29,748 nt of DNA. Origin: a virus. The stretch lies in IMG/VR virus record IMGVR_UViG_3300042868_006454, positions 1 to 29,748 of that record. One strand, given 5' to 3'. The first letter of the stretch is position 1, and each line of letters opens with the position of its first letter. The position numbers and the translations under genes are program-made. Positions 4,958 to 23,145 of the stretch are shown one piece after another. The notes beneath the pieces are model-generated. The model had not been told where the DNA came from and did no database searches. It worked only from the letters and a program-made list of their open reading frames with translations.

Positions 4958-6000
4958 TTAATGCCGAAGCCCGTAAAATTATGCTCGCCATTAACAAACG
5001 TTTTGGCGAAAACGTTGTAGTAGTTGGTGAGGACATTCGAGCAGGTCTTATCTCAAAAATTACAACCGGGTCCACAACTTTTGATTACGTCCTCGGCGGC
5101 GGGTTCCCCGGCAATCAGTGGAACGAACTCATCGGAGAAGCCAGCCACGGAAAGACTGCCATTGCGCTCAAGTGTATTGCCGCCAATCAAGAACTTAACC
5201 CAGAGCACACCACGGTGTGGGTTGCCGCAGAGCAGTGGGTTCCGGAGTACGCCGCAATGTGCGGGGTAGACACCAGCCGCGTAATTGTGGTGGAGACCAA
5301 CATCATGGAAGAGGCGTACCAAGCAGTCATTGAGTTTGCTAAGTCGAGGTCGGTTGACGCCATTGTCATTGACTCACTTCCAGCGTTGGTACCCCAGCCC
5401 GAGATGGACAAAACTATGGACGAGATGACCGTTGGTCGTGGAGCTTTGCTTACCAACAAGTTTTTTCGTGTGGTGGGCGATGCCATGAAGCGAAGTCTTA
5501 TTGAGGCAGAGCGCCCGGTTTTAGGACTCATCATCAATCAGTACCGTATGAAGATTGGCGTCATGCACGGCGACCCTCGCACGACACCCGGTGGACAGGG
5601 CAAAGACTACGCCTTCTTCACTCGTTCTGAGATTCGTCGGGATGAGTGGATTGAAACGGGGTCCGGAAACAACAAAGTCCGCGTAGGGCAGCGCATCAAA
5701 ATACGCACCATTAAAAACAAGGTAGCCCCTCCACAACAAGTTGCTTACATCGACTACTACTTCAAAGACCACAGCATTTACTCTGCCGGTGACTACGACT
5801 TTGCCAAAGAAATTGCGGCAATGGTTATTGTTAAGGGAATTGTAGACCGCAAAGGCGGTTGGATTTACTACGGGGAACGCAAGTGGAATGGACAAGAAGC
5901 GCTGGTGTCGTCTATCCGCGAAGAGGTAGACTTTATGGAGGAGCTTCGTGACAAAGTTCTAACAACCCCCGACAACATTATGGAGGCAGCAAATGATTAA
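4954..6000 (+). CDS. recA: RecA/UvsX-family recombinase
   Basis: I place the start at the GTG at 4954, overlapping the preceding stop and preceded by AGGA; the frame is open further upstream but there lies inside the zinc-ribbon gene. The 348-residue product has Walker A GEASHGKT (61-68), Walker B VDAIVIDS, and a clear L2 DNA-binding loop, INQYRMKIGVMHG followed by TTPGG. It would form filaments on ssDNA and catalyse strand exchange in recombination-dependent replication and repair. It is about as long as bacterial RecA, but the C-terminus is divergent. Neighbouring genes encode the resolvases and the exonuclease this pathway needs. Confidence 0.95.
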   Translation: MINAEARKIMLAINKRFGENVVVVGEDIRAGLISKITTGSTTFDYVLGGGFPGNQWNELIGEASHGKTAIALKCIAANQELNPEHTTVWVAAEQWVPEYAAMCGVDTSRVIVVETNIMEEAYQAVIEFAKSRSVDAIVIDSLPALVPQPEMDKTMDEMTVGRGALLTNKFFRVVGDAMKRSLIEAERPVLGLIINQYRMKIGVMHGDPRTTPGGQGKDYAFFTRSEIRRDEWIETGSGNNKVRVGQRIKIRTIKNKVAPPQQVAYIDYYFKDHSIYSAGDYDFAKEIAAMVIVKGIVDRKGGWIYYGERKWNGQEALVSSIREEVDFMEELRDKVLTTPDNIMEAAND

Positions 6001-6238
6001 CCCCGAGTTTGTTATTCACGATACTGAGTGGGCAAAGGCGCTTGAGTTCCAGTACGAAGTGTACATGGAAGCTTGCTTTGAGTCCGTAGACGCAGACGAA
6101 GAGGACGAGCCGTTTGAAACCTTGTCTGGAGAACCGTTCTGCGGCTGTAGTACGTGCCACACCCGTGAGACGCTGTTCTTTTACACGCCTCGTTTGATGA
6201 GAGCAGCTGAACAGGGAAAGGTGGAGCTTCTTGCGTAG
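5993..6238 (+). CDS. small acidic protein with CGCSTCH motif
   Basis: An ATG overlapping the recA end by 8 bases follows GGAGG at a good distance. The 81-residue product is acidic (DADEEDEP) and has a compact cysteine/histidine cluster, CGCSTCH, about residues 50-56, that could bind a metal. I do not recognise it. The 8-base overlaps on both sides point to tight translational coupling with the recombinase and the nuclease gene. Confidence 0.75.
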   Translation: MINPEFVIHDTEWAKALEFQYEVYMEACFESVDADEEDEPFETLSGEPFCGCSTCHTRETLFFYTPRLMRAAEQGKVELLA

Positions 6239-6548
6239 CGAGGGGCAAAAGCAATCGCAGGCGCACGAAAAACGCCTTGCCAAAGCCGTCGGGGGCAGCA
6301 CTACCGCTGCCTCCGGCGCTTTTTGGAGCCGAAAAGGCGACGTCCGTAATAACGACTTACTTATAGAGCACAAGTGGACCGGAAAAAAAACAAAGACAAT
6401 AAGTTCCGCCGAACTTCAAAAGATTACAACGGAAGCCATCATGGATGGGCGGCTGCCTGTATTTGGCATCCATCTAGATGGCGAAGACTACGTCGTTCTT
6501 TTAGAGACTGACTTTTTAGAGATGTGGTACAAGACTCATGATGCGTGA
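6231..6548 (+). CDS. PD-(D/E)XK nuclease-like protein, Holliday-junction-resolvase type
   Basis: The start is a TTG with GTGGAG five bases upstream. The 105-residue product begins with the helix SQAHEKRLAKAVGG, then a glycine/serine loop, then GDVRNNDLLIEHKWT, which supplies the acid and the E-x-K signature of a PD-(D/E)XK active site, and ends with beta strands (VFGIHLDGEDYVVLL). Size and order match small archaeal Hjc-like and phage resolvases. It sits between recA and a WhiB gene. A second resolvase of the RuvC type is encoded 2 kb downstream. Nuclease superfamily is fairly clear; the precise substrate is inferred. Confidence 0.7.
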   Translation: MRSEGQKQSQAHEKRLAKAVGGSTTAASGAFWSRKGDVRNNDLLIEHKWTGKKTKTISSAELQKITTEAIMDGRLPVFGIHLDGEDYVVLLETDFLEMWYKTHDA

Positions 6549-6885
6549 TGAGTCATGGCGAGAAAAAGCCGCATGTATGGGGGAAGACACCGAGATGTTT
6601 TTCCCTCCTCGCGATAAAAATAAATATAAGCCCATAGCATTAGAGGCAAAGACCCATTGCTTTGGTGCAAACGGGAACACACCGTGCCCCGTACGTTTAG
6701 ACTGTCTGTGGTATGCAATAGACTCTGATGAAGTGCACGGAATATGGGGTGGAATGAGCCACCGAGAACGAAACGCTTTAGTCCGGAAATGGCGTAAAAC
6801 CCATAAAAACCAGATGACTCTAGAAGAGTTTGTGTTTCAACAGAAAGAGGGAAAAAATGGTAGACCCAAAGTCGGACCTGCGTAA
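6538..6885 (+). CDS. whiB: WhiB-family regulator with an expanded cysteine spacing
   Basis: This 115-residue protein overlaps the nuclease gene and starts at tandem ATGs. It has the four cysteines of a WhiB [4Fe-4S] protein (C13, C41, C50, C56) and the signature turn GIWGG (68-72), followed by a basic C-terminal tail for DNA binding. The usual central CX2C is CX8C here, because the segment FGANGNTP separates C41 and C50. WhiB proteins bind the primary sigma factor and alter host or phage transcription; phage copies are known to modulate host cell division or superinfection. The insertion may alter the cluster environment. Confidence 0.88.
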   Translation: MMRDESWREKAACMGEDTEMFFPPRDKNKYKPIALEAKTHCFGANGNTPCPVRLDCLWYAIDSDEVHGIWGGMSHRERNALVRKWRKTHKNQMTLEEFVFQQKEGKNGRPKVGPA

Positions 6886-7732
6886 ATATCTTGACGTAAA
6901 AACCAAGCCAACTAGGCTTATTGGGGACCTCGAGCGCCACTTGATGGCTCGCCCTGTCGGGGACCGGTCTACCACCGTGCTGCACCCCTCAGAAATTATT
7001 AAAAGGGACTGGTGTCTTCGGGCTTCGTACTTCTTGCTCAAAGGAGTGCCTAAGGTTGCGGAAAAACCCAACCTTCGCCTGCAAAGCATTTTTGATGAAG
7101 GTCACGCTATCCACGCTAAGTGGCAACGTTGGTTTCAGGAGATGGGTGTCCTTCACGGGCAGTTTCTCTGCTCGGTATGCGACAAGGTAACTTTGGGCAC
7201 TTCTCCCAAGGAGTGTGCGCACTGCAACGCCCCGTGGGACAAGCTCACATATAACGAGGTAACCCTACGCGACGATTCTCTGCGTATTGCGGGGCACACA
7301 GACGGCTGGCTCAAAGGTATTGGCAATGAGACCTTGATTGAGATTAAATCAGTTGGACCCGGCACTATCCGCGTTGAAGCTCCCGGTCTTATGAAAGACG
7401 CAGACGGAGACTTTATGAAGGCGTGGACTCAAGTGCGTCGCCCCTTTTCGCCACACATTCTGCAGGGTCAGATGTACCTTGAGCTAATGAAGCGCACGGG
7501 TAACCCGGTGGACGAGATTGTGTTTCTCTACGAGTTAAAAGCAGACCAGTCCTACAAGGAGTTCAGCATTAAGGCTGACTACTCATATGTTGAGCCCATC
7601 TTTGACAATTGCGCATTGGTGGTAAAAGCCGTTGAAGAGAACAAGCTACCCGCGTGCAACAACAACCCCCAGAAGGGGTGCAAGCAATGCTCCCCCTACA
7701 CCGAAGACATGCTGCTTGAGGTGACCGCGTGA
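6857..7732 (+). CDS. Cas4/RecB-like PD-(D/E)XK exonuclease with Fe-S cysteines and an inserted zinc ribbon
   Basis: I start at the ATG at 6857, preceded by GAGGGAAAAA; the start is nested in the end of the whiB gene. The 291-residue protein has the Cas4-type motif order: HPSE (43-46), an N-terminal cysteine C53, GHTDG with D149, IEIK (E162, K164), QGQMYL with Q203, and a C-terminal cysteine trio C267, C275, C278. These four cysteines would bind a [4Fe-4S] cluster. An extra CSVC...CAHC ribbon (105-123) lies between the N-terminal helix and the active site. The enzyme is likely to resect DNA ends for the RecA-like protein. No CRISPR locus is nearby, so a phage recombination role is preferred. 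Confidence 0.88.
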   Translation: MVDPKSDLRKYLDVKTKPTRLIGDLERHLMARPVGDRSTTVLHPSEIIKRDWCLRASYFLLKGVPKVAEKPNLRLQSIFDEGHAIHAKWQRWFQEMGVLHGQFLCSVCDKVTLGTSPKECAHCNAPWDKLTYNEVTLRDDSLRIAGHTDGWLKGIGNETLIEIKSVGPGTIRVEAPGLMKDADGDFMKAWTQVRRPFSPHILQGQMYLELMKRTGNPVDEIVFLYELKADQSYKEFSIKADYSYVEPIFDNCALVVKAVEENKLPACNNNPQKGCKQCSPYTEDMLLEVTA

Positions 7733-16128: not shown

Positions 16129-16692
16129 ATGGGTGACGCACCACTTATCGGTAAACGAGAGTTTGAACACGACGGACCAGTCATTCGACTGTTGATGTGT
16201 TTTGTGTGCAACTCTATCGAGGAGCTCCCTTCGTACACGGGACCTTCCGACCAAGACTACTTGCTGCAAATTTCCGTTGAGAAGCACGTATTCCCGTCAG
16301 GAGAGCCGCACAAGGGCAAGCTGTTTATCCTGCCGGTAAAAACGTGGGCAAACGAAGGTTCTCGAAAAGAGATTATTCAACAATTGCGTGGCGGAGGGTC
16401 AGCCGGTCTTGACGCGTTGTCTCCCGAGGGAAACTACTACGCCACCAAGAGCCAGTTTGCAGAAGATGCCATGACTTGTTACGAACGGCACAACCGCCCC
16501 CAAGTGGGCTGCCCTGACTACGGGACTCCTGAAAAGCGCCTGCTTCCTAACACCGCCAAGGAGCGTAAAGACGCCGGGATTGAAAGCCCTGAGAATGCTC
16601 CCGGTCCAAAGATTTACCTATGCAACTTTTGCCCCATGCACAGCATCGTAACCAGTAATAAGAGAATGGCTAAAGGACTATACAATGCCTAA
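16129..16692 (+). CDS. hypothetical cysteine-pair (zinc-binding) protein
   Basis: The ATG follows GGGAGC at good spacing. The 187-residue product has MCFVC near residue 25, single cysteines in TCYERH and VGCPDYG in the middle, and LCNFCPMH near the C-terminus, so one or two zinc sites built from distant CxxC pairs are likely. The region between is mixed alpha/beta (DYLLQISVEKHVF, KLFILPVKTWAN). I have the impression that similar proteins occur in actinophages, but no function is known to me. Confidence 0.78.
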   Translation: MGDAPLIGKREFEHDGPVIRLLMCFVCNSIEELPSYTGPSDQDYLLQISVEKHVFPSGEPHKGKLFILPVKTWANEGSRKEIIQQLRGGGSAGLDALSPEGNYYATKSQFAEDAMTCYERHNRPQVGCPDYGTPEKRLLPNTAKERKDAGIESPENAPGPKIYLCNFCPMHSIVTSNKRMAKGLYNA

Positions 16693-17003: not shown

Positions 17004-17909
17004 ATGGCTAACTCTTCGGCGCAATATCCAACGTCGTATTTTAGCGCCCCCGCGACAGCTTTAGACCCCACTCTCTTTGATGGGCGAACCATTAAGCCGT
17101 GGGTCCGGCAGGGAATCACGTCCCTGCTAAACGACTTTTTGGGCAAAACTTACCGAAACGCAGAGACATGGGCACACCCTTGGTTAGCAGGGTCTGGAGT
17201 CTCTTACCAGTGGGCAGCGGCTCGGCAACCCGGTGACCTTGACTGCTTGGTCGGAGTCGACTACATTAATTTTCGAAAAGCTAACCCTGAGTACGTTGGG
17301 CTGTCTGACAGTGAAATTAGCAACCAAATAAACGAAGAGTTCCGTAAAGGACTCCAGCCCGGTACTGAAAACTGGAACGGCTATGAGTTAACTTTTTACG
17401 TCAACTCAGGTGCCACAGACATACGCTCAATTAAGCCATACGCCGCATACGACCTCAAGTATGACAACTGGACGGTTACACCTGACCCTAATGCTGCACC
17501 GCCCCAGAACCCTGATTGGGAGCGTGCGGTGTCTGTTGACCGCGCTCAAGCCACACAGGCGTTGACGCGGTTTACGCAGGCTCTACAGGACGTACAGCAA
17601 TCCCAAGGAGAGGCTGTACGTCGTAACGCCGAGGCTCGGCTCAATGCTTCCCTGCAATCTGGAACAGCACTGTTTGATGAGATTCATGGAAACCGGGGTC
17701 AAGCGTTCTCCTCCACCGGAGAAGGGTACCTTGATTTCAGCAATTACCGCTGGCAGGCGGGCAAACGTGAGGGCACCATCCAAGACCTACGCAAAATTGC
17801 GGAGTACTCCAAAGGACTCCAACAGTCTCAAGCAGCTTCTTACGGGGTAGAACTACCCTCAGCAGATGTATTGATTCGCCGCGCGGCTCTTGCCCGAGTT
17901 ACTTACTAA
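17004..17909 (+). CDS. putative nucleotidyltransferase-fold protein
   Basis: The ATG follows GGAGG at close spacing (CTGGAGGT). The 301-residue product has a pattern typical of the Pol-beta nucleotidyltransferase fold: AGSG (62-65), then GDLDCLVGVD with D78 and D80 as the D-x-D metal ligands, and a later beta strand YELTFYV with E128 as a candidate third acid. The C-terminal 130 residues are helical and glutamine-rich, perhaps binding the substrate. Such enzymes transfer nucleotides to RNA, proteins or antibiotics; the substrate cannot be told here. It opens the cluster that ends with the transglycosylase-like gene. Confidence 0.65.
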   Translation: MANSSAQYPTSYFSAPATALDPTLFDGRTIKPWVRQGITSLLNDFLGKTYRNAETWAHPWLAGSGVSYQWAAARQPGDLDCLVGVDYINFRKANPEYVGLSDSEISNQINEEFRKGLQPGTENWNGYELTFYVNSGATDIRSIKPYAAYDLKYDNWTVTPDPNAAPPQNPDWERAVSVDRAQATQALTRFTQALQDVQQSQGEAVRRNAEARLNASLQSGTALFDEIHGNRGQAFSSTGEGYLDFSNYRWQAGKREGTIQDLRKIAEYSKGLQQSQAASYGVELPSADVLIRRAALARVTY

Positions 17910-17921
17910 AGAAAGTGAACC

Positions 17922-18485
17922 ATGTTATTTAACGACCCAATGTACCTAGGGCTTACAACCAGCCAAATGGCTCCCATTAAAGTTGGTAATCCGCTTCCTA
18001 CGCGCGATACTCGGGTGGGCGTTCCCGGACCCGTCCTTAAAAGCAATCAAGAACCCGCCGCTGAAGACTCCCGTAGAATTAGCCAACGACCCAGTGAGTC
18101 AAGACTTGTTCTTGCCAAGGTAATCCCCACTACAAACGTACTTCAGTTCGGCACTCAAGCCAGCGCACATCTCACTGCAATTGATGAGTTTCATGACCGA
18201 GTAAATGAGGACTTGAAAAACGCAGAAGCGGAAGCAGTCGCTAAGGGTATGCCCGCTATGGAAGCCGTTAGAAAACGTGACCAAATAGTCAAGGCTATGC
18301 GCCAAAGAGTTATCCCCCCTATTAAGCAGGCGACTACCGCCGCAAAACTTGGTGGATATGACGCTTTAGTTGACCACACTACGGAATTAGCCATGCCTCT
18401 AAGTTCTAAAGGCAGCGTAACCACCGGAGTTATGCGTATTAATGATTCTGGAGAATGGGAACGAATTCCGGACCCTCGGCAGTAG
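17922..18485 (+). CDS. hypothetical protein, 187 residues
   Basis: The ATG lies 12 bases after the preceding stop, with AAAGAAAGTG upstream as a weak ribosome-binding site. The N-terminal 60 residues are polar and probably disordered; residues about 75-145 form long charged helices (VNEDLKNAEAEAVAKG). No cysteines or catalytic motif are visible. It sits between the nucleotidyltransferase-like and HAD-like genes, so it may be a partner in that module; this is context only. Confidence 0.75.
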   Translation: MLFNDPMYLGLTTSQMAPIKVGNPLPTRDTRVGVPGPVLKSNQEPAAEDSRRISQRPSESRLVLAKVIPTTNVLQFGTQASAHLTAIDEFHDRVNEDLKNAEAEAVAKGMPAMEAVRKRDQIVKAMRQRVIPPIKQATTAAKLGGYDALVDHTTELAMPLSSKGSVTTGVMRINDSGEWERIPDPRQ

Positions 18486-18494
18486 TATTACCCC

Positions 18495-18980
18495 ATGTAC
18501 ATATTTGTAGAACTAGACGGAGTAGTAAAAGACCAAAATGATACGCCCATACCCACGGGCGTGCTTATGGTTTCTACTTTAACGGTGTACAACAGGCTCA
18601 CTTACCTCACTTCGGGTACGAGAGAAGACGCACAACGGTGGCTCAACGTCAATAAGATTGTTGATTTTGACAACATCATAGACAAGCGGGTGTCTCTCGT
18701 TGAGGAGCCTTTGTCAGAACGGCAAATTAAGTATGCCCGTAGCCAAGGACCTATCGAACTTCTAATTACGGCTAATCCAGCCACATGGAAGTTTGCCTTT
18801 GAACTAGGCATTCCTGTCGTTTTGTTTGCTTCTCCGGACTACACCCGACCTGAGTTTCGTCCGGATGCCCCTAAGCGCCAACGGTCATGGGATGAAATTG
18901 AGCGGGCTATTAAAGCTCAAAATGAACTCCGCACCCAAGACGCGCGGCTAAGTCGAGCCGAGGTCACTAACTTTGAGTGA
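18495..18980 (+). CDS. HAD-like protein with altered nucleophile position
   Basis: The ATG lacks a clear ribosome-binding site and may depend on coupling. The 161-residue product opens with IFVELDGVVKD, which aligns with HAD motif I (hhhDxDGhh) but has Glu where the nucleophilic Asp should be. LTSGTREDAQRWL follows as motif II (T/S). Later strands (ELLITANPATWKFAFELGIPVVLFASPDY) fit the Rossmannoid core. The cap is minimal. If the alignment is right, phosphatase activity would be lost or altered. The stop overlaps the TTG start of the transglycosylase-like gene. Confidence 0.6.
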   Translation: MYIFVELDGVVKDQNDTPIPTGVLMVSTLTVYNRLTYLTSGTREDAQRWLNVNKIVDFDNIIDKRVSLVEEPLSERQIKYARSQGPIELLITANPATWKFAFELGIPVVLFASPDYTRPEFRPDAPKRQRSWDEIERAIKAQNELRTQDARLSRAEVTNFE

Positions 18981-20487
18981 CGTTATTTTTGGCGGCGTAG
19001 AAGTTCCAAGCAACCGTACGCTGTTGGAGCGTAATGGAGTCGAACGGGTTATGTTGAACTACTGGGGGCTGCGTAAGCGCGGGCTCCCTAAGACTAAGCT
19101 GTATCTTATTGACGAGCACTTCTTCCCCGGCATGAAAGTCTGGGTCGACTCAGGCGCTACTCAAGCCGATAAGTCTGACTTATCAGAGCGTGAACTTGAA
19201 GAGTACGCCGCAGATTACGAAGACTTCATTGCTCTAAACCATGACCGCATTGAGGGCTGGGTTGAGTTTGATAGCCAGAAATTTGGGTTGCCTAAGATAC
19301 AGCAGAACCGAGCCGCCTTTGAACATGACCCCAAGATGTGGGTGGTCTGGCACGAGGAATACAACACCATGGTTCTGCAGCGATGGGCGGCGGAGTACCA
19401 GAACATCGCTATTCCGCACTCTGCTATCGAATCGGTAACCTCGCTCGCGGGCATCACTCGAGGTCTAGCATCAAAGTACCCCGTGCAGTTTCATGCCCTT
19501 GCCACCGCCAAGCCCGAAAACCTCCGTAGGATTCCGTTTGCATCCGCCAGCACTTTATCGTGGCTGTCTCCTATGCGCCGCGGAGAAACCATCGTCTGGG
19601 ACGGCACAAAGCTGGCTCGTTATCCCAAAAAAATGAAAGACCAAGCCCGACTGCGATACAAGTCGGTGGTTGAGAAGGCGGGGCTAGACTTTGACAAGTT
19701 TGTATCAGACGACACGCTGGAGGCGACCAAAGTCGCTATCTGGTCATTCCTACAGTTGGAGAAAATGATGGACAAGGATAAGCCCGACCTCAAAGCAATC
19801 AAGGGGGGGAAAGTAGTTGATAACAGCGAGGACACCCTATACACGGGTTTGATGGATTTGCTAGGGGGGTCTTCTGATAACAGTGCTTTAGAGACGCGGC
19901 ACGACGAGCCCACCACAGTGGTCAAACGAGACCCCGAAGACGTCCAGAACCTGCCTGTATTTGGGTATCAGATGAAGACCATTGTGGACTCCGACGAGGA
20001 CGGCAATGACGTTCTTAAGCAGGTTCCTGTTGCGCACTCTACAGGGGCTTCGTTACGCCAATGCAACACCTGTTTTGTAGCGGCAAACTGCCCCGCATTC
20101 AAGCCTGATAACGAATGCGCGTTCAACCTCCCGGTGGAGGTAAAGACCCCCGAACAACTTAAGGGGCTGCTCACCGCAATGGTTGAGATGCAGGCTTCCC
20201 GTGTAGCGTTTATGCGGTATGCAGAGGAATTGAACTCCGGATATGTAGACCCAAATACCTCTCAGGAGATTGACCGTCTGTTCAAGTTGGTGGCTAACGT
20301 AAAGGACTTGGAAAGCAACAAAGAGTACATCAGCATCCGTGCCGAAAGGCAGTCTGCTGGCGGCGTTCTAAGTGCCATCTTTGGAGACCGAGCACAGGCT
20401 CTGCGCGACATGGAGCCGCCCGCTCAACCCGCTTTAACCGAGGAGCAAACTACGTTAATTATTCGAGAAAGCCTCGAAGACAAGTAG
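18973..20487 (+). CDS. tRNA-guanine transglycosylase/DpdA-like TIM-barrel protein with C-terminal four-cysteine module
   Basis: This 504-residue protein starts at a TTG that overlaps the previous stop; the next frame has no alternative. Residues 1-230 follow the pattern of queuine/archaeosine transglycosylases and phage DpdA enzymes: VWVDSGATQAD (D59-S60-G61), WVEFDSQKFG (E98, D100), MWVVWHEE, HALATAKPENLRR (174-186) and FASASTLSWLSP (189-200). Such enzymes exchange guanine for a 7-deazaguanine in tRNA or phage DNA. A linker of about 120 residues leads to C364-x2-C367-x5-C373-x8-C382, a zinc or Fe-S site, and then a helical C-terminus. No preQ0 biosynthesis genes (folE, queC/D/E) are in the window. 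The family call is good; substrate is unknown. Confidence 0.72.
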   Translation: MSDVIFGGVEVPSNRTLLERNGVERVMLNYWGLRKRGLPKTKLYLIDEHFFPGMKVWVDSGATQADKSDLSERELEEYAADYEDFIALNHDRIEGWVEFDSQKFGLPKIQQNRAAFEHDPKMWVVWHEEYNTMVLQRWAAEYQNIAIPHSAIESVTSLAGITRGLASKYPVQFHALATAKPENLRRIPFASASTLSWLSPMRRGETIVWDGTKLARYPKKMKDQARLRYKSVVEKAGLDFDKFVSDDTLEATKVAIWSFLQLEKMMDKDKPDLKAIKGGKVVDNSEDTLYTGLMDLLGGSSDNSALETRHDEPTTVVKRDPEDVQNLPVFGYQMKTIVDSDEDGNDVLKQVPVAHSTGASLRQCNTCFVAANCPAFKPDNECAFNLPVEVKTPEQLKGLLTAMVEMQASRVAFMRYAEELNSGYVDPNTSQEIDRLFKLVANVKDLESNKEYISIRAERQSAGGVLSAIFGDRAQALRDMEPPAQPALTEEQTTLIIRESLEDK

Positions 20488-20594: not shown

Positions 20595-21854
20595 TCACAT
20601 GAACTCTACCACAGATTCCGCTGCTTTGGAATTCTGGTGGCGCAAACGGTGCAGGTACTTCTCCGTGGTTTGCACCGAGGAATGCCCGAGCCGTTCTTTG
20701 ACCTCATGCAAGTCAACCCCGTTCTTGAGGAGCAGGGTTGCGTTAGCGTGCCGCAGGTCGTGTGTACGAGGCACCCACGTCATTCCGGACTTGAGTACCG
20801 CCTCGACCCATATTTTGCGCCACACGTCACGAGGCAGGTGGTCGCTGCCCAAGCCAAACATTTCACGGTTGCTGGGGTGGCGGTGCATTGCACGCTGTTG
20901 CTGTCGGTACTCCGCGTTAGCACGTCGGCAGTCATCGCACCGACATCCCTGCCGAGTGTACGCATACCGAGTCCCATGAGCGTCAACGTAATCGAGAGGC
21001 TTCTCGCTCTTACGTTTCTGCTCCGGCTTAGCCGCAACGAGGCTCTTGGGGAAGAGCAGGTCGCGACCACTCAGCGAGTGCGCCTTGACGTGCGCGGTCA
21101 CTTCACTTACCAGTCCTGTACTCAACGTGACCATCCGTCCATCCCCCGACTTGGTGCCGGGGACTACGAGGAATCGTTGTCCGTTGTTGTACTCATGCCC
21201 AAGGTCGTTGACTCGTCTTTCGACGTAGACATCTCCAGAGGTAAAGTCAATGTCGTCTGCGCGCAATTCGGTGGCTTCACCAAAGCGGCATCCGGACATC
21301 ACCAGAAACTGGGCAAACAATTGCGCTGTTGTATTCGGAAGATGCTGTTGGATGTTCTTGAACTCCGTAGGCTCGAGAACATTGAGTATCTTGCGTCCAC
21401 GTTTTTTGACAGTAATCTTGTGCGTGGGGTTGTTCTCAAGCAGGTCGGACTCAACCAACTCCCGGAAGGCTGAACCAAGCGCGGACTTTGCATGAGCGCG
21501 AACCTCCGCGCTAACGCCATCCATTGCAAGCCGACGCATTAGGTCACGGACTTGCGGACGAGTTACTTCTCCCACCTTTCGCTTACCCATGATGGGCAAG
21601 ACGTGCTTAGCCAACACGGACTCATAGCCCTTCTTGGTCAACGGCAGTAAGTCCGCTGTCTTGAGCCAGACTCCAACGTACTCCCGCAGGGTCATAGACA
21701 TGCGGTACCCACCGAGCCCACCGCGGCTCTCAGCGTTCTCGGCGCGTGCAAGCGCCTCCTGCTTTGAGTCAAACGTACCGGCAGAATACCGCAGACCGTT
21801 TTTGTCACGGTAATACCCCGTAAACCGCTTTCCTCGTTTCGTAACGTACGCCAC
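20595..21854 (-). CDS. int: tyrosine-family phage integrase with cysteine-motif insertion
   Basis: I start at a GTG at 21854 that overlaps the preceding TAG and has AGGAGG seven bases upstream, giving 419 residues. There is an N-terminal arm-binding region (VTKRGKRFTGYYRDKNG), a SAM-like core-binding domain (about 55-140), and a catalytic domain with R190 (SGCRFGEATEL), K235 (GTKSGDGR), H365/R368 (HDLRH), H391 (LGHSS) and nucleophile Y400. Between K235 and HDLRH lies an extra segment (about 290-335) with HGTRYAYTRQGCRCDDCR (C304, C306, C309), absent from ordinary integrases. It would integrate and excise the phage genome with the excisionase-like protein encoded just upstream. Confidence 0.96.
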   Translation of the reverse strand: MAYVTKRGKRFTGYYRDKNGLRYSAGTFDSKQEALARAENAESRGGLGGYRMSMTLREYVGVWLKTADLLPLTKKGYESVLAKHVLPIMGKRKVGEVTRPQVRDLMRRLAMDGVSAEVRAHAKSALGSAFRELVESDLLENNPTHKITVKKRGRKILNVLEPTEFKNIQQHLPNTTAQLFAQFLVMSGCRFGEATELRADDIDFTSGDVYVERRVNDLGHEYNNGQRFLVVPGTKSGDGRMVTLSTGLVSEVTAHVKAHSLSGRDLLFPKSLVAAKPEQKRKSEKPLDYVDAHGTRYAYTRQGCRCDDCRRANAEYRQQQRAMHRHPSNREMFGLGSDHLPRDVWRKIWVEAVLKSGMTWVPRTHDLRHANATLLLKNGVDLHEVKERLGHSSVQTTEKYLHRLRHQNSKAAESVVEFM

Positions 21855-22078
21855 TACACGACCTCCTCTGCGGGCAGAGCCTTTGTGCTCCATTTTCGTC
21901 GGGAGTTGTCCCACTCTTCAATGGTCGCTCTCTTCCACAAGGGCTTGTTGCCAATGTAGTCGTCGGGCGTAGGTAACACCCCGCGTTTCTTATACGTCCA
22001 TAGGTGGTTGTACTTGATGCCTGTAAGCACAGACACGTCATGCGTAGTCAGCCATTGGTTAGACGGTACTGTCGACAT
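21854..22078 (-). CDS. xis: excisionase-like helix-turn-helix protein
   Basis: The ATG at 22078 follows AAGGAG. The 74-residue product is a small winged-helix protein: WLTTHDVSVLTGIKYNHLW (helix-turn-helix), TYKKRGVLPTPD, then KPLWKRATIEEWDNSRRKW as the wing and closing helix. This is the MerR/Xis architecture of recombination directionality factors and small regulators. The position directly before the integrase, with its stop overlapping the integrase start, supports excisionase, though a regulator of int cannot be excluded. Confidence 0.75.
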   Translation of the reverse strand: MSTVPSNQWLTTHDVSVLTGIKYNHLWTYKKRGVLPTPDDYIGNKPLWKRATIEEWDNSRRKWSTKALPAEEVV

Positions 22079-22418
22079 AGTTGCGCTCCTTCGGGTAGTA
22101 GTTTCGGGTTCGTTTGTTTGTTTGTTTTTTTGCAGGTTCTTCCTCGGTCTCGGAGACGCCGTATTGTTCCCGCAACCTGTCGAGGTATACGGTCCGAAGC
22201 GCCGAACTCTTTCGGATACGCACTCGGTCTGCAGGTGATGTGCCGCCCCATACGCCGTAGTCCATGACTCGGGGTATCGACAGCGCTTCGTCAAGGCACT
22301 CCTCTACCACGGGGCACCGCGCGCACACAGCGTAGGCTTGCTTAGGCACTTGGTTCGCCGACAATGGGAAAAACATATCAGGGTCAGTCTGGGCACATAA
22401 CGCGTCGTCTTTGTTCAT
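22059..22418 (-). CDS. whiB: WhiB-family regulator (canonical cysteine spacing)
   Basis: The ATG at 22418 lies in an ATGA overlap with the HicA-like gene. The 119-residue product has C8, then C32-x2-C35-x5-C41 (VCARCPVVEEC) and the GVWGG turn (55-59), followed by a basic SPADRVRIRK segment and a lysine-rich tail. It is a typical [4Fe-4S] WhiB protein, expected to bind the host primary sigma factor. It sits two genes before the integrase and may regulate lysogeny or host genes. Its end overlaps the xis start by 20 bases. Confidence 0.93.
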   Translation of the reverse strand: MNKDDALCAQTDPDMFFPLSANQVPKQAYAVCARCPVVEECLDEALSIPRVMDYGVWGGTSPADRVRIRKSSALRTVYLDRLREQYGVSETEEEPAKKQTNKRTRNYYPKERNYVDSTV

Positions 22419-22639
22419 TTGCTTTCCGTGAGTACAAAGCCAGCCCGCTTGAGGCGGCTTATGATGTTGCTGGTGGCTCTCCAGTCCGACGGCGTCAGAC
22501 CTGATACGACGAGCGCCCCTTCGGGCGACCGCCATTTGAGGTGGCATGACCGGGAGACGGTTACCTCCCAGCCCTGTTTTTCGGCTTGCTTGATGAGAAC
22601 CTTGAGTTCTTTGCTGGTGCCTATTCGTTGCTTTCCCAT
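22415..22639 (-). CDS. HicA-like (dsRBD-fold) small protein
   Basis: I start at the ATG at 22639, giving 74 residues; an ATG about eight codons upstream is possible. The sequence KELKVLIKQAEKQGWEVTVS, then SCHLKW with the candidate catalytic H33, RSPEGALVVSG, and a C-terminal helix ATSNIISRLKRAGF, follows the alpha-beta-beta-beta-alpha HicA toxin pattern. HicA proteins are ribosome-independent mRNA interferases normally paired with HicB antitoxins. No HicB is recognisable next door, so this may be a phage variant with another role. Confidence 0.7.
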   Translation of the reverse strand: MGKQRIGTSKELKVLIKQAEKQGWEVTVSRSCHLKWRSPEGALVVSGLTPSDWRATSNIISRLKRAGFVLTESK

Positions 22640-23145
22640 ATCTTCTTTCCCATCTCCCATAGGTAGGTGTACGACTCGGGCTGATGTCCGGGGTCTTCTG
22701 CCCAACCAAACTGGCTGTACCACCCGTAGTCTTTGCACAACAATGCCGTGCGGTGGCTCGAGGCAATGGCTTCAAACCGAGGCTGGTCGTCTGCCCACTC
22801 AGGAACCGTGCCAGCCTCATCGAGGATGCCCCGAGTCCGTGCGGCATCGAGCGTGGCGTGTGCTTTGGTGTCAATGGTGGTCTTGAACCCACGCTCGCGC
22901 CACTCGCCGCACATCCAGTCGATGTAGTGACCCAGCGCAACCTCATACCCACGCCACATTTTGGTGGCAGGGTGGTTGTACCAGCCCTTGGGCTCCCGGT
23001 GGTTGCCCTCGGGGTCGAGTTTGAGGTTGGTCATCATAATCTGCCAAGCCTCGAGCGCCTGTTTGTTGAGGCGCTTGTTGTCCAACTGCTGTGCTGTTGT
23101 TTCAAACGCGTAGCGACCGTTGGTTGATGTAATGAAAGTTTGCAT
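22621..23145 (-). CDS. pyrimidine-dimer DNA glycosylase (endonuclease V-type family)
   Basis: The ATG at 23145 follows GAGGAG and the stop of the preceding gene. The 174-residue protein matches the bacterial pyrimidine-dimer excision family: MQTFITS, LDNKRLNKQALEAWQI, a helix with WYNHPATKMWRGYEVAL, the middle WMCGEWRERG, and the strongly conserved SHRTALLCKDYGWYSQFGW near the C-terminus. Members cut the glycosidic bond at cyclobutane pyrimidine dimers and nick the strand. A phage copy would repair UV damage to its genome in sunlit habitats. It sits in the integrase operon. Confidence 0.8.
   Translation of the reverse strand: MQTFITSTNGRYAFETTAQQLDNKRLNKQALEAWQIMMTNLKLDPEGNHREPKGWYNHPATKMWRGYEVALGHYIDWMCGEWRERGFKTTIDTKAHATLDAARTRGILDEAGTVPEWADDQPRFEAIASSHRTALLCKDYGWYSQFGWAEDPGHQPESYTYLWEMGKKIWESNE

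Follow-up and report, generated by a model that had tools for sequence, protein, structure and literature searches.

The locus and its gene family

The window, that is the whole stretch of DNA that was analysed, is one entire IMG/VR record of 29,748 bases and probably a piece of a larger phage. The gene of interest (18973-20487, + strand) starts with a TTG codon, shares 8 bp with the gene upstream and encodes a protein of 504 amino acids. This ORF and every motif named in the original prediction, DSGA (residues 59-62), EFDS (98-101), LATAKPE (176-182) and ASTLSWL (192-198), were found in this frame. The main features of the gene and of its conserved neighbours are the following:

16129-16692, + strand: six-cysteine protein (C24xxC27, C117, C128, C165xxC168), zinc-protein-like in sequence
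17004-17909, + strand: nucleotidyltransferase-fold protein (GSGxSYQW...DLD, E128) with a C-terminal helical bundle
18495-18980, + strand: conserved neighbour directly upstream, HAD/Rossmann-like by eye
18973-20487, + strand: protein with a tRNA-guanine transglycosylase (TGT)/DpdA fold fused to a four-cysteine and helical module
18973-19776, + strand: complete (beta/alpha)8 barrel of the TGT superfamily (residues 1-268), from the AlphaFold2 model (pLDDT ~93) and structural matches
19549-19551, + strand: codon of Ser193, aligned with the nucleophile Asp of DpdA (9g D215, BS162P1 D230)
19777-20061, + strand: variable linker (residues 269-363), modelled mostly with low confidence
20062-20118, + strand: CX2CX5CX8C motif (C364, C367, C373, C382), putative zinc site from sequence
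20149-20316, + strand: two conserved helices (residues 393-448) of the four-cysteine module, from the model and conservation

Elsewhere in the window, a long ORF of the - strand (22059-22952) carries a WhiB-type regulator domain (residues 182-244), which fits an actinobacterial host. In a tyrosine integrase (20595-21914, - strand), residues ~294-347 contain cysteines and match HNH-endonuclease PHROGs, which looks like the insertion of a zinc/HNH-like piece in the catalytic domain.

The 504-residue protein matches phrog_887, named "queuine tRNA-ribosyltransferase", over its full length (E 1.1e-56) and has full-length homologues in BRock-like Streptomyces phages (31-33% identity). Relatives are encoded by 113 stretches of IMG/VR and, in a later scan, by at least 578. 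These three lines of evidence show that the fused family is real and abundant. Searches of Pfam, NCBIfam, PADLOC and PDB sequences with the window protein gave nothing significant, and the literature found holds no biochemistry on any fused member. In databases, hundreds of relatives are filed as queuine/DpdA base-exchange enzymes, a name that is probably misleading for the fused family. The closest annotated proteins, phrog_887 and gp181 of the BRock-like phage GiJojo ("dpdA-like tRNA-guanine transglycosylase"), are fused in the same way over their full length and likewise lack the Asp (see below), but differ from the window member by their identity (31-33%) and gene background; their own sequences do not support their functional names.

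A TGT-type barrel devoid of the nucleophile

An AlphaFold2 model based on a 55-sequence family alignment shows a confident eight-stranded barrel (residues 1-268), followed by regions of low confidence. When residues 1-288 of this model were compared to known structures with VIA-align, the top matches were TGTs (Z 16.5-17.7), including the archaeosine TGT 1j2b (Z 17.7, rmsd 3.4, 262 residues aligned) and 1wkd (Z 17.1). Cap10 of type IV CBASS (9ntn_A) was also matched (Z 16.8, 246 residues aligned). Foldseek alone ranked non-TGT TIM barrels first; their superposition was poor, and VIA-align put TGTs on top. Furthermore, the family profile matches that of bona fide phage DpdAs (probability 97.9%, E 5.6e-13). 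The predicted structure thus upholds the TGT/DpdA-type barrel initially proposed from motifs, and the barrel is, according to this model, of the TGT superfamily fold.

The nucleophile of TGTs is Asp280 (PMC3660597). DpdAs encoded beside preQ0 genes carry the motif S[CV]DS, with W or F two residues further on, and the Asp is present in all seven that were aligned (9g, BcepGomr, RHEph04, R7M, 83AMN, phiSM and BS162P1). Where these working DpdAs read S[CV]DS-x-x-W, the window protein reads S-A-S-T-L-S-W. In the seven DpdAs, 19 residues separate the nucleophile position from a conserved upstream His, which is the published His196 in 9g; H174 and S193 have equal spacing in the window protein. The alignment of the family and DpdA profiles pairs D59 with D72, H174 with H196 and S193 with D215 of 9g. 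Position 193 is occupied by Ser (n = 131), Ala (n = 3) or Thr (n = 2) in the 136 aligned fused homologues, and by Asp or Glu in none. A single change separates SVDSTSWLS of an Asp-type DpdA (IMG/VR contig L155) from SVSSTSWLS of BRock. Since strand 8 of the model spans residues 189-194, S193 lies at its C-terminal end. The equivalence of Ser193 and Asp280 of TGT rests on the DpdA alignments and on this position, the direct profile alignment of the window family with E. coli TGT being confined to the DSG region. The original prediction rightly listed ASTLSWL as a motif but overlooked that the nucleophile position inside it is a Ser. The DpdA-like gene of the human gut phage MT835482 (L005:2557-4755) is interrupted precisely within its nucleophile motif by an intein-like insert of ~430 amino acids (FFSSDS / ... 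VVHN / TTWLGG).

Of the base-exchange aspartates, whose absence was initially taken to speak against the predicted enzyme, the nucleophile is thus missing while the DSG aspartate (Asp102 of TGT) is retained in the window as Asp59; in the family, the latter is replaced by Glu in 73 and by His in four of the 136 members. Other residues of the barrel are near-invariant or invariant (E98, H174, K180, P181) or strongly conserved at its mouth (D/E59, D100, D182). By established TGT chemistry, covalent exchange would not be possible with a Ser at position 193. Ser193 might still serve another reaction, and D/E59, E98, D100, H174, K180 and D182 might support a non-covalent hydrolysis. Compared to the DpdA of 9g (DpdA1 type, His196), the window protein shares the barrel, DSGA, the His (H196 = H174) and S-x-(D/S)-S-x-x-W with identical spacing, but differs by (i) Ser193 instead of Asp215, (ii) the absence of FolE, QueD, QueE and QueC, and (iii) an additional C-terminal module.

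At their C-terminal ends, the strands of the barrel are more conserved (mean entropy 0.83) than at their N-terminal ends (1.70) and than the rest of the barrel (1.32). Only four of 10,000 random position sets were as conserved, a figure that is only a guide because positions are not independent. Judging from this conservation, the binding pocket is maintained despite the loss of the nucleophile. In the barrel tree, Asp-type proteins and the Asp-less family lie on the two sides of one branch (support 100/99), and the order within the tree is unsure because of long branches. Fusion, nucleophile loss and pathway loss coincide among the sampled members.

The four-cysteine module and its stand-alone relatives

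All four cysteines are kept in the 136 aligned fused members. In TGTs, zinc is bound by three Cys and one His that belong to the barrel region. In the window protein, the four cysteines are located after residue 360, beyond the barrel, where AlphaFold2 confidence is low; this position supports, as originally stated, a module distinct from the TGT site. By eye, the aligned DpdAs also lack a TGT-type zinc site.

The module was initially left unassigned. It appears indeed unlike the zinc site of TGTs, but it can now be linked to DpdA, since three phages encode it next to DpdA as a gene of its own. Residues 363-491 of the window protein have their match in a distinct protein of Bacteroides phage BS162P1; this protein itself matches positions 365-486 of phrog_887 (E 8e-20). 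Residues 350-503 match a separate protein of MT835482. In BS162P1 (L001), MT835482 (L005) and contig L155, the four-cysteine gene directly follows an Asp-containing DpdA gene; QueC lies closely upstream and QueE closely downstream. Both halves are homologous to those of the window protein, including CX2CX5CX8C and the helical tail; the split pairs differ from it by their two genes, the Asp, the preQ0 genes and the lack of a cassette-type nucleotidyltransferase. The module therefore looks like a DpdA partner that was fused in actinophages. No close relative of the BS162P1 barrel was found in the IMG/VR scan. In the split gut phages, a small basic protein without library match is conserved directly after the four-cysteine gene (L001:4480-4800, L005:5503-5820). 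The module (window 20062-20118; L001:3728-4483) also gives repeated weak matches to phrog_6902 and phrog_16015, "terminase small subunit", always in the Cys region.

In four copies from Streptomyces genomes (L144, L145, L147 and L148; match near 6000-7280), all four cysteines are gone whereas barrel and helical tail persist; one branch can thus do without the metal site. These four copies lie close to large serine-recombinase-like ORFs, suggesting integrated elements.

A conserved upstream cassette

Three upstream neighbours keep their order with the TGT-like gene in 62 to >120 loci each; BRock-like phages and the majority of bacterial copies have them (22-45% identity). This cassette belongs to actinobacterial phages and their probably integrated relatives. 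None of the three gave a significant Pfam or PHROG match, and the gene located at 17922-18485 is not conserved. The six-cysteine protein (16129-16692) is found in >100 loci and in actinobacterial genomes. The product of 18495-18980, HAD-like by eye, seems devoid of a conserved catalytic Asp, and a relative in GiJojo is annotated "hydrolase".

In the family of the third neighbour (17004-17909), G63, S64, D78, D80 and E128 are invariant, a nucleotidyltransferase signature, and the model is confident (pLDDT 92.6). The best-scoring structural matches cover only the helical part; those covering the N-terminal domain are all nucleotidyltransferases, with modest Z values below 8 (1ylq, Z 6.8; 1no5, Z 6.2), and no CD-NTase is among the fold matches listed. 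Motif and fold together thus argue for a nucleotidyltransferase, although the Z values are modest. This gene is syntenic with the TGT-like gene in >100 loci. Its family is present in the five Streptomyces phage genomes and in four of six bacterial genomes (the Terracoccus and Saccharothrix copies lack it), and in none of the three Asp-type phages.

Absence of the preQ0 pathway and alternative functions

The absence of preQ0 genes from the window, already noted from the sequence, was corroborated by searches confined to QueC, QueD, QueE and FolE and made in part on IMG/VR contigs that may be incomplete. Profiles of QueC, QueE and QueD had no match in the window, nor in the five complete genomes of BRock-like Streptomyces phages (112-116 kb) and 19 contigs that range from 60 to 98 kb; the same profiles found all three in two gut-phage records with split genes. 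Likewise, FolE was absent from the window, the five complete phage relatives and 24 contigs, and was found in BS162P1. The use of a host precursor had been proposed. However, tgt is missing from all nine actinobacterial genomes in which the cassette occurs wholly or partly (control 14/14), only two of them have a full QueC, and no QueC lies beside the bacterial genome copies.

The protein could nonetheless be a working DpdA-type enzyme that uses 7-deazaguanine from the host or the environment, with another nucleophile or a non-covalent exchange. Its pocket is strongly conserved and the DSG and FD motifs are largely kept. Moreover, 76 "group three" phages encode DpdA without preQ0 genes (PMC6884629). 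Among these, Salmonella phage 7-11 carries a little dADG; the DNA of Orion, another phage of this group, is unmodified. The complete lack of the nucleophile Asp in the 136 members, the replacement of the DSG aspartate in about half of them and the absence of tgt and scarcity of QueC in the cassette-carrying genomes make this unlikely, and the originally predicted insertion of 7-deazaguanine into phage DNA or host tRNA does not fit these data.

The TGT fold is a tRNA-binding fold. The cassette might thus service tRNAs (end repair, addition or protection), the barrel and the zinc module binding tRNA and the nucleotidyltransferase acting on it. This would agree with the 29 tRNAs encoded by BRock (PMC7453282) and with neighbours that include a nucleotidyltransferase and a possible phosphatase-like gene. 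It is nevertheless improbable: no tRNA was found in the window, the gene also occurs in bacterial genome copies and the link between the nucleotidyltransferase and tRNA is hypothetical.

TGT folds have been reused elsewhere. Cap10 binds the modified N-terminus of a nucleotidyltransferase (PMC11996544), and QTRT2 is a non-catalytic TGT (PMC6165067). The likeness to Cap10, based on fold and gene neighbourhood, lies in a TGT fold, probably reused for binding here too, and in a nucleotidyltransferase as likely partner. However, Cap10 works with a QueC-like Cap9, whereas QueC is absent from the phages of the window family that were searched and from the surroundings of its genome copies, and the cassette nucleotidyltransferases have no conserved N-terminal glycine. 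The DpdA profile did not reach Cap10 among PDB sequences. QTRT2 likewise has a TGT fold without functional catalytic site, but it retains the zinc site of TGTs and forms a pair with the catalytic QTRT1, whereas the window protein has another putative metal motif and is not known to have a catalytic subunit. The window family thus seems to resemble Cap10 and QTRT2 in fold reuse, without being placed in the Cap10 family. That it is a phage counterpart of the Cap10-nucleotidyltransferase pair devoid of QueC, in which the TGT fold would read a nucleotide- or base-modified nucleotidyltransferase, its own or that of host immunity, is doubtful.

TIM-barrel pockets often switch chemistry. The remaining acidic residues could activate water in a base-releasing or otherwise hydrolytic (glycosylase-like) enzyme, as the conservation of E98, H174, K180, P181, D/E59, D100 and D182 would allow. 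We consider this quite unlikely, since no family of that kind was matched, no product or pathway context was found and Cap10 and QTRT2, by analogy, speak for binding. Finally, a role in DNA packaging or DNA recognition, suggested by the likeness of the four-cysteine/helical module to terminase small subunits (phrog_6902 positions 280-378, E 0.006; 3e-4 to 7e-3 per genome), is very improbable, because this short match mostly reflects Cys spacing, the PHROG label itself is putative and the match to phrog_887 is overwhelmingly stronger.

A probable binder or adaptor

The loss of the nucleophile and the presence of a nucleotidyltransferase-like gene in place of base-making genes suggest that the window protein is probably a binder rather than a modifier of DNA or tRNA. 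We thus favour, as the probable reading, a remodelled TGT/DpdA-fold binder or adaptor with a nucleotidyltransferase partner, and not a 7-deazaguanine transglycosylase. An ancestral DpdA and its separate four-cysteine partner would have been fused, and the nucleophile and the pathway lost. The base-exchange chemistry would be gone and the conserved pocket used to bind a ligand; candidates are a base or nucleotide, a protein end bearing a nucleotide, and a base within tRNA or DNA. The fused four-cysteine/helical module probably contacts nucleic acid or a partner. The protein would most likely work, as binder or adaptor, with the nucleotidyltransferase-fold protein encoded ~1 kb upstream, a physical partnership that the synteny suggests.

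Hundreds of phage genes bearing the name queuine tRNA-ribosyltransferase or DpdA are taken as evidence of DNA or tRNA modification. Our analysis suggests that a large actinophage branch filed as queuine tRNA-ribosyltransferase/DpdA is unlikely to use the known chemistry, and it offers a test of such annotations based on one residue, the nucleophile. The loss of the latter may help to explain the unmodified DNA of some phages that encode DpdA but no precursor genes. Furthermore, the four-cysteine protein is a candidate partner of true DpdAs. Should the protein and the neighbouring nucleotidyltransferase prove to act as a pair, CBASS would not be the only setting in which TGT folds became binders beside nucleotidyltransferases. 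If the Cap10-like reading were true, the cassette would amount to a signalling or counter-defence module of a new kind that is common among actinobacterial phages and masked by the name of a tRNA enzyme.
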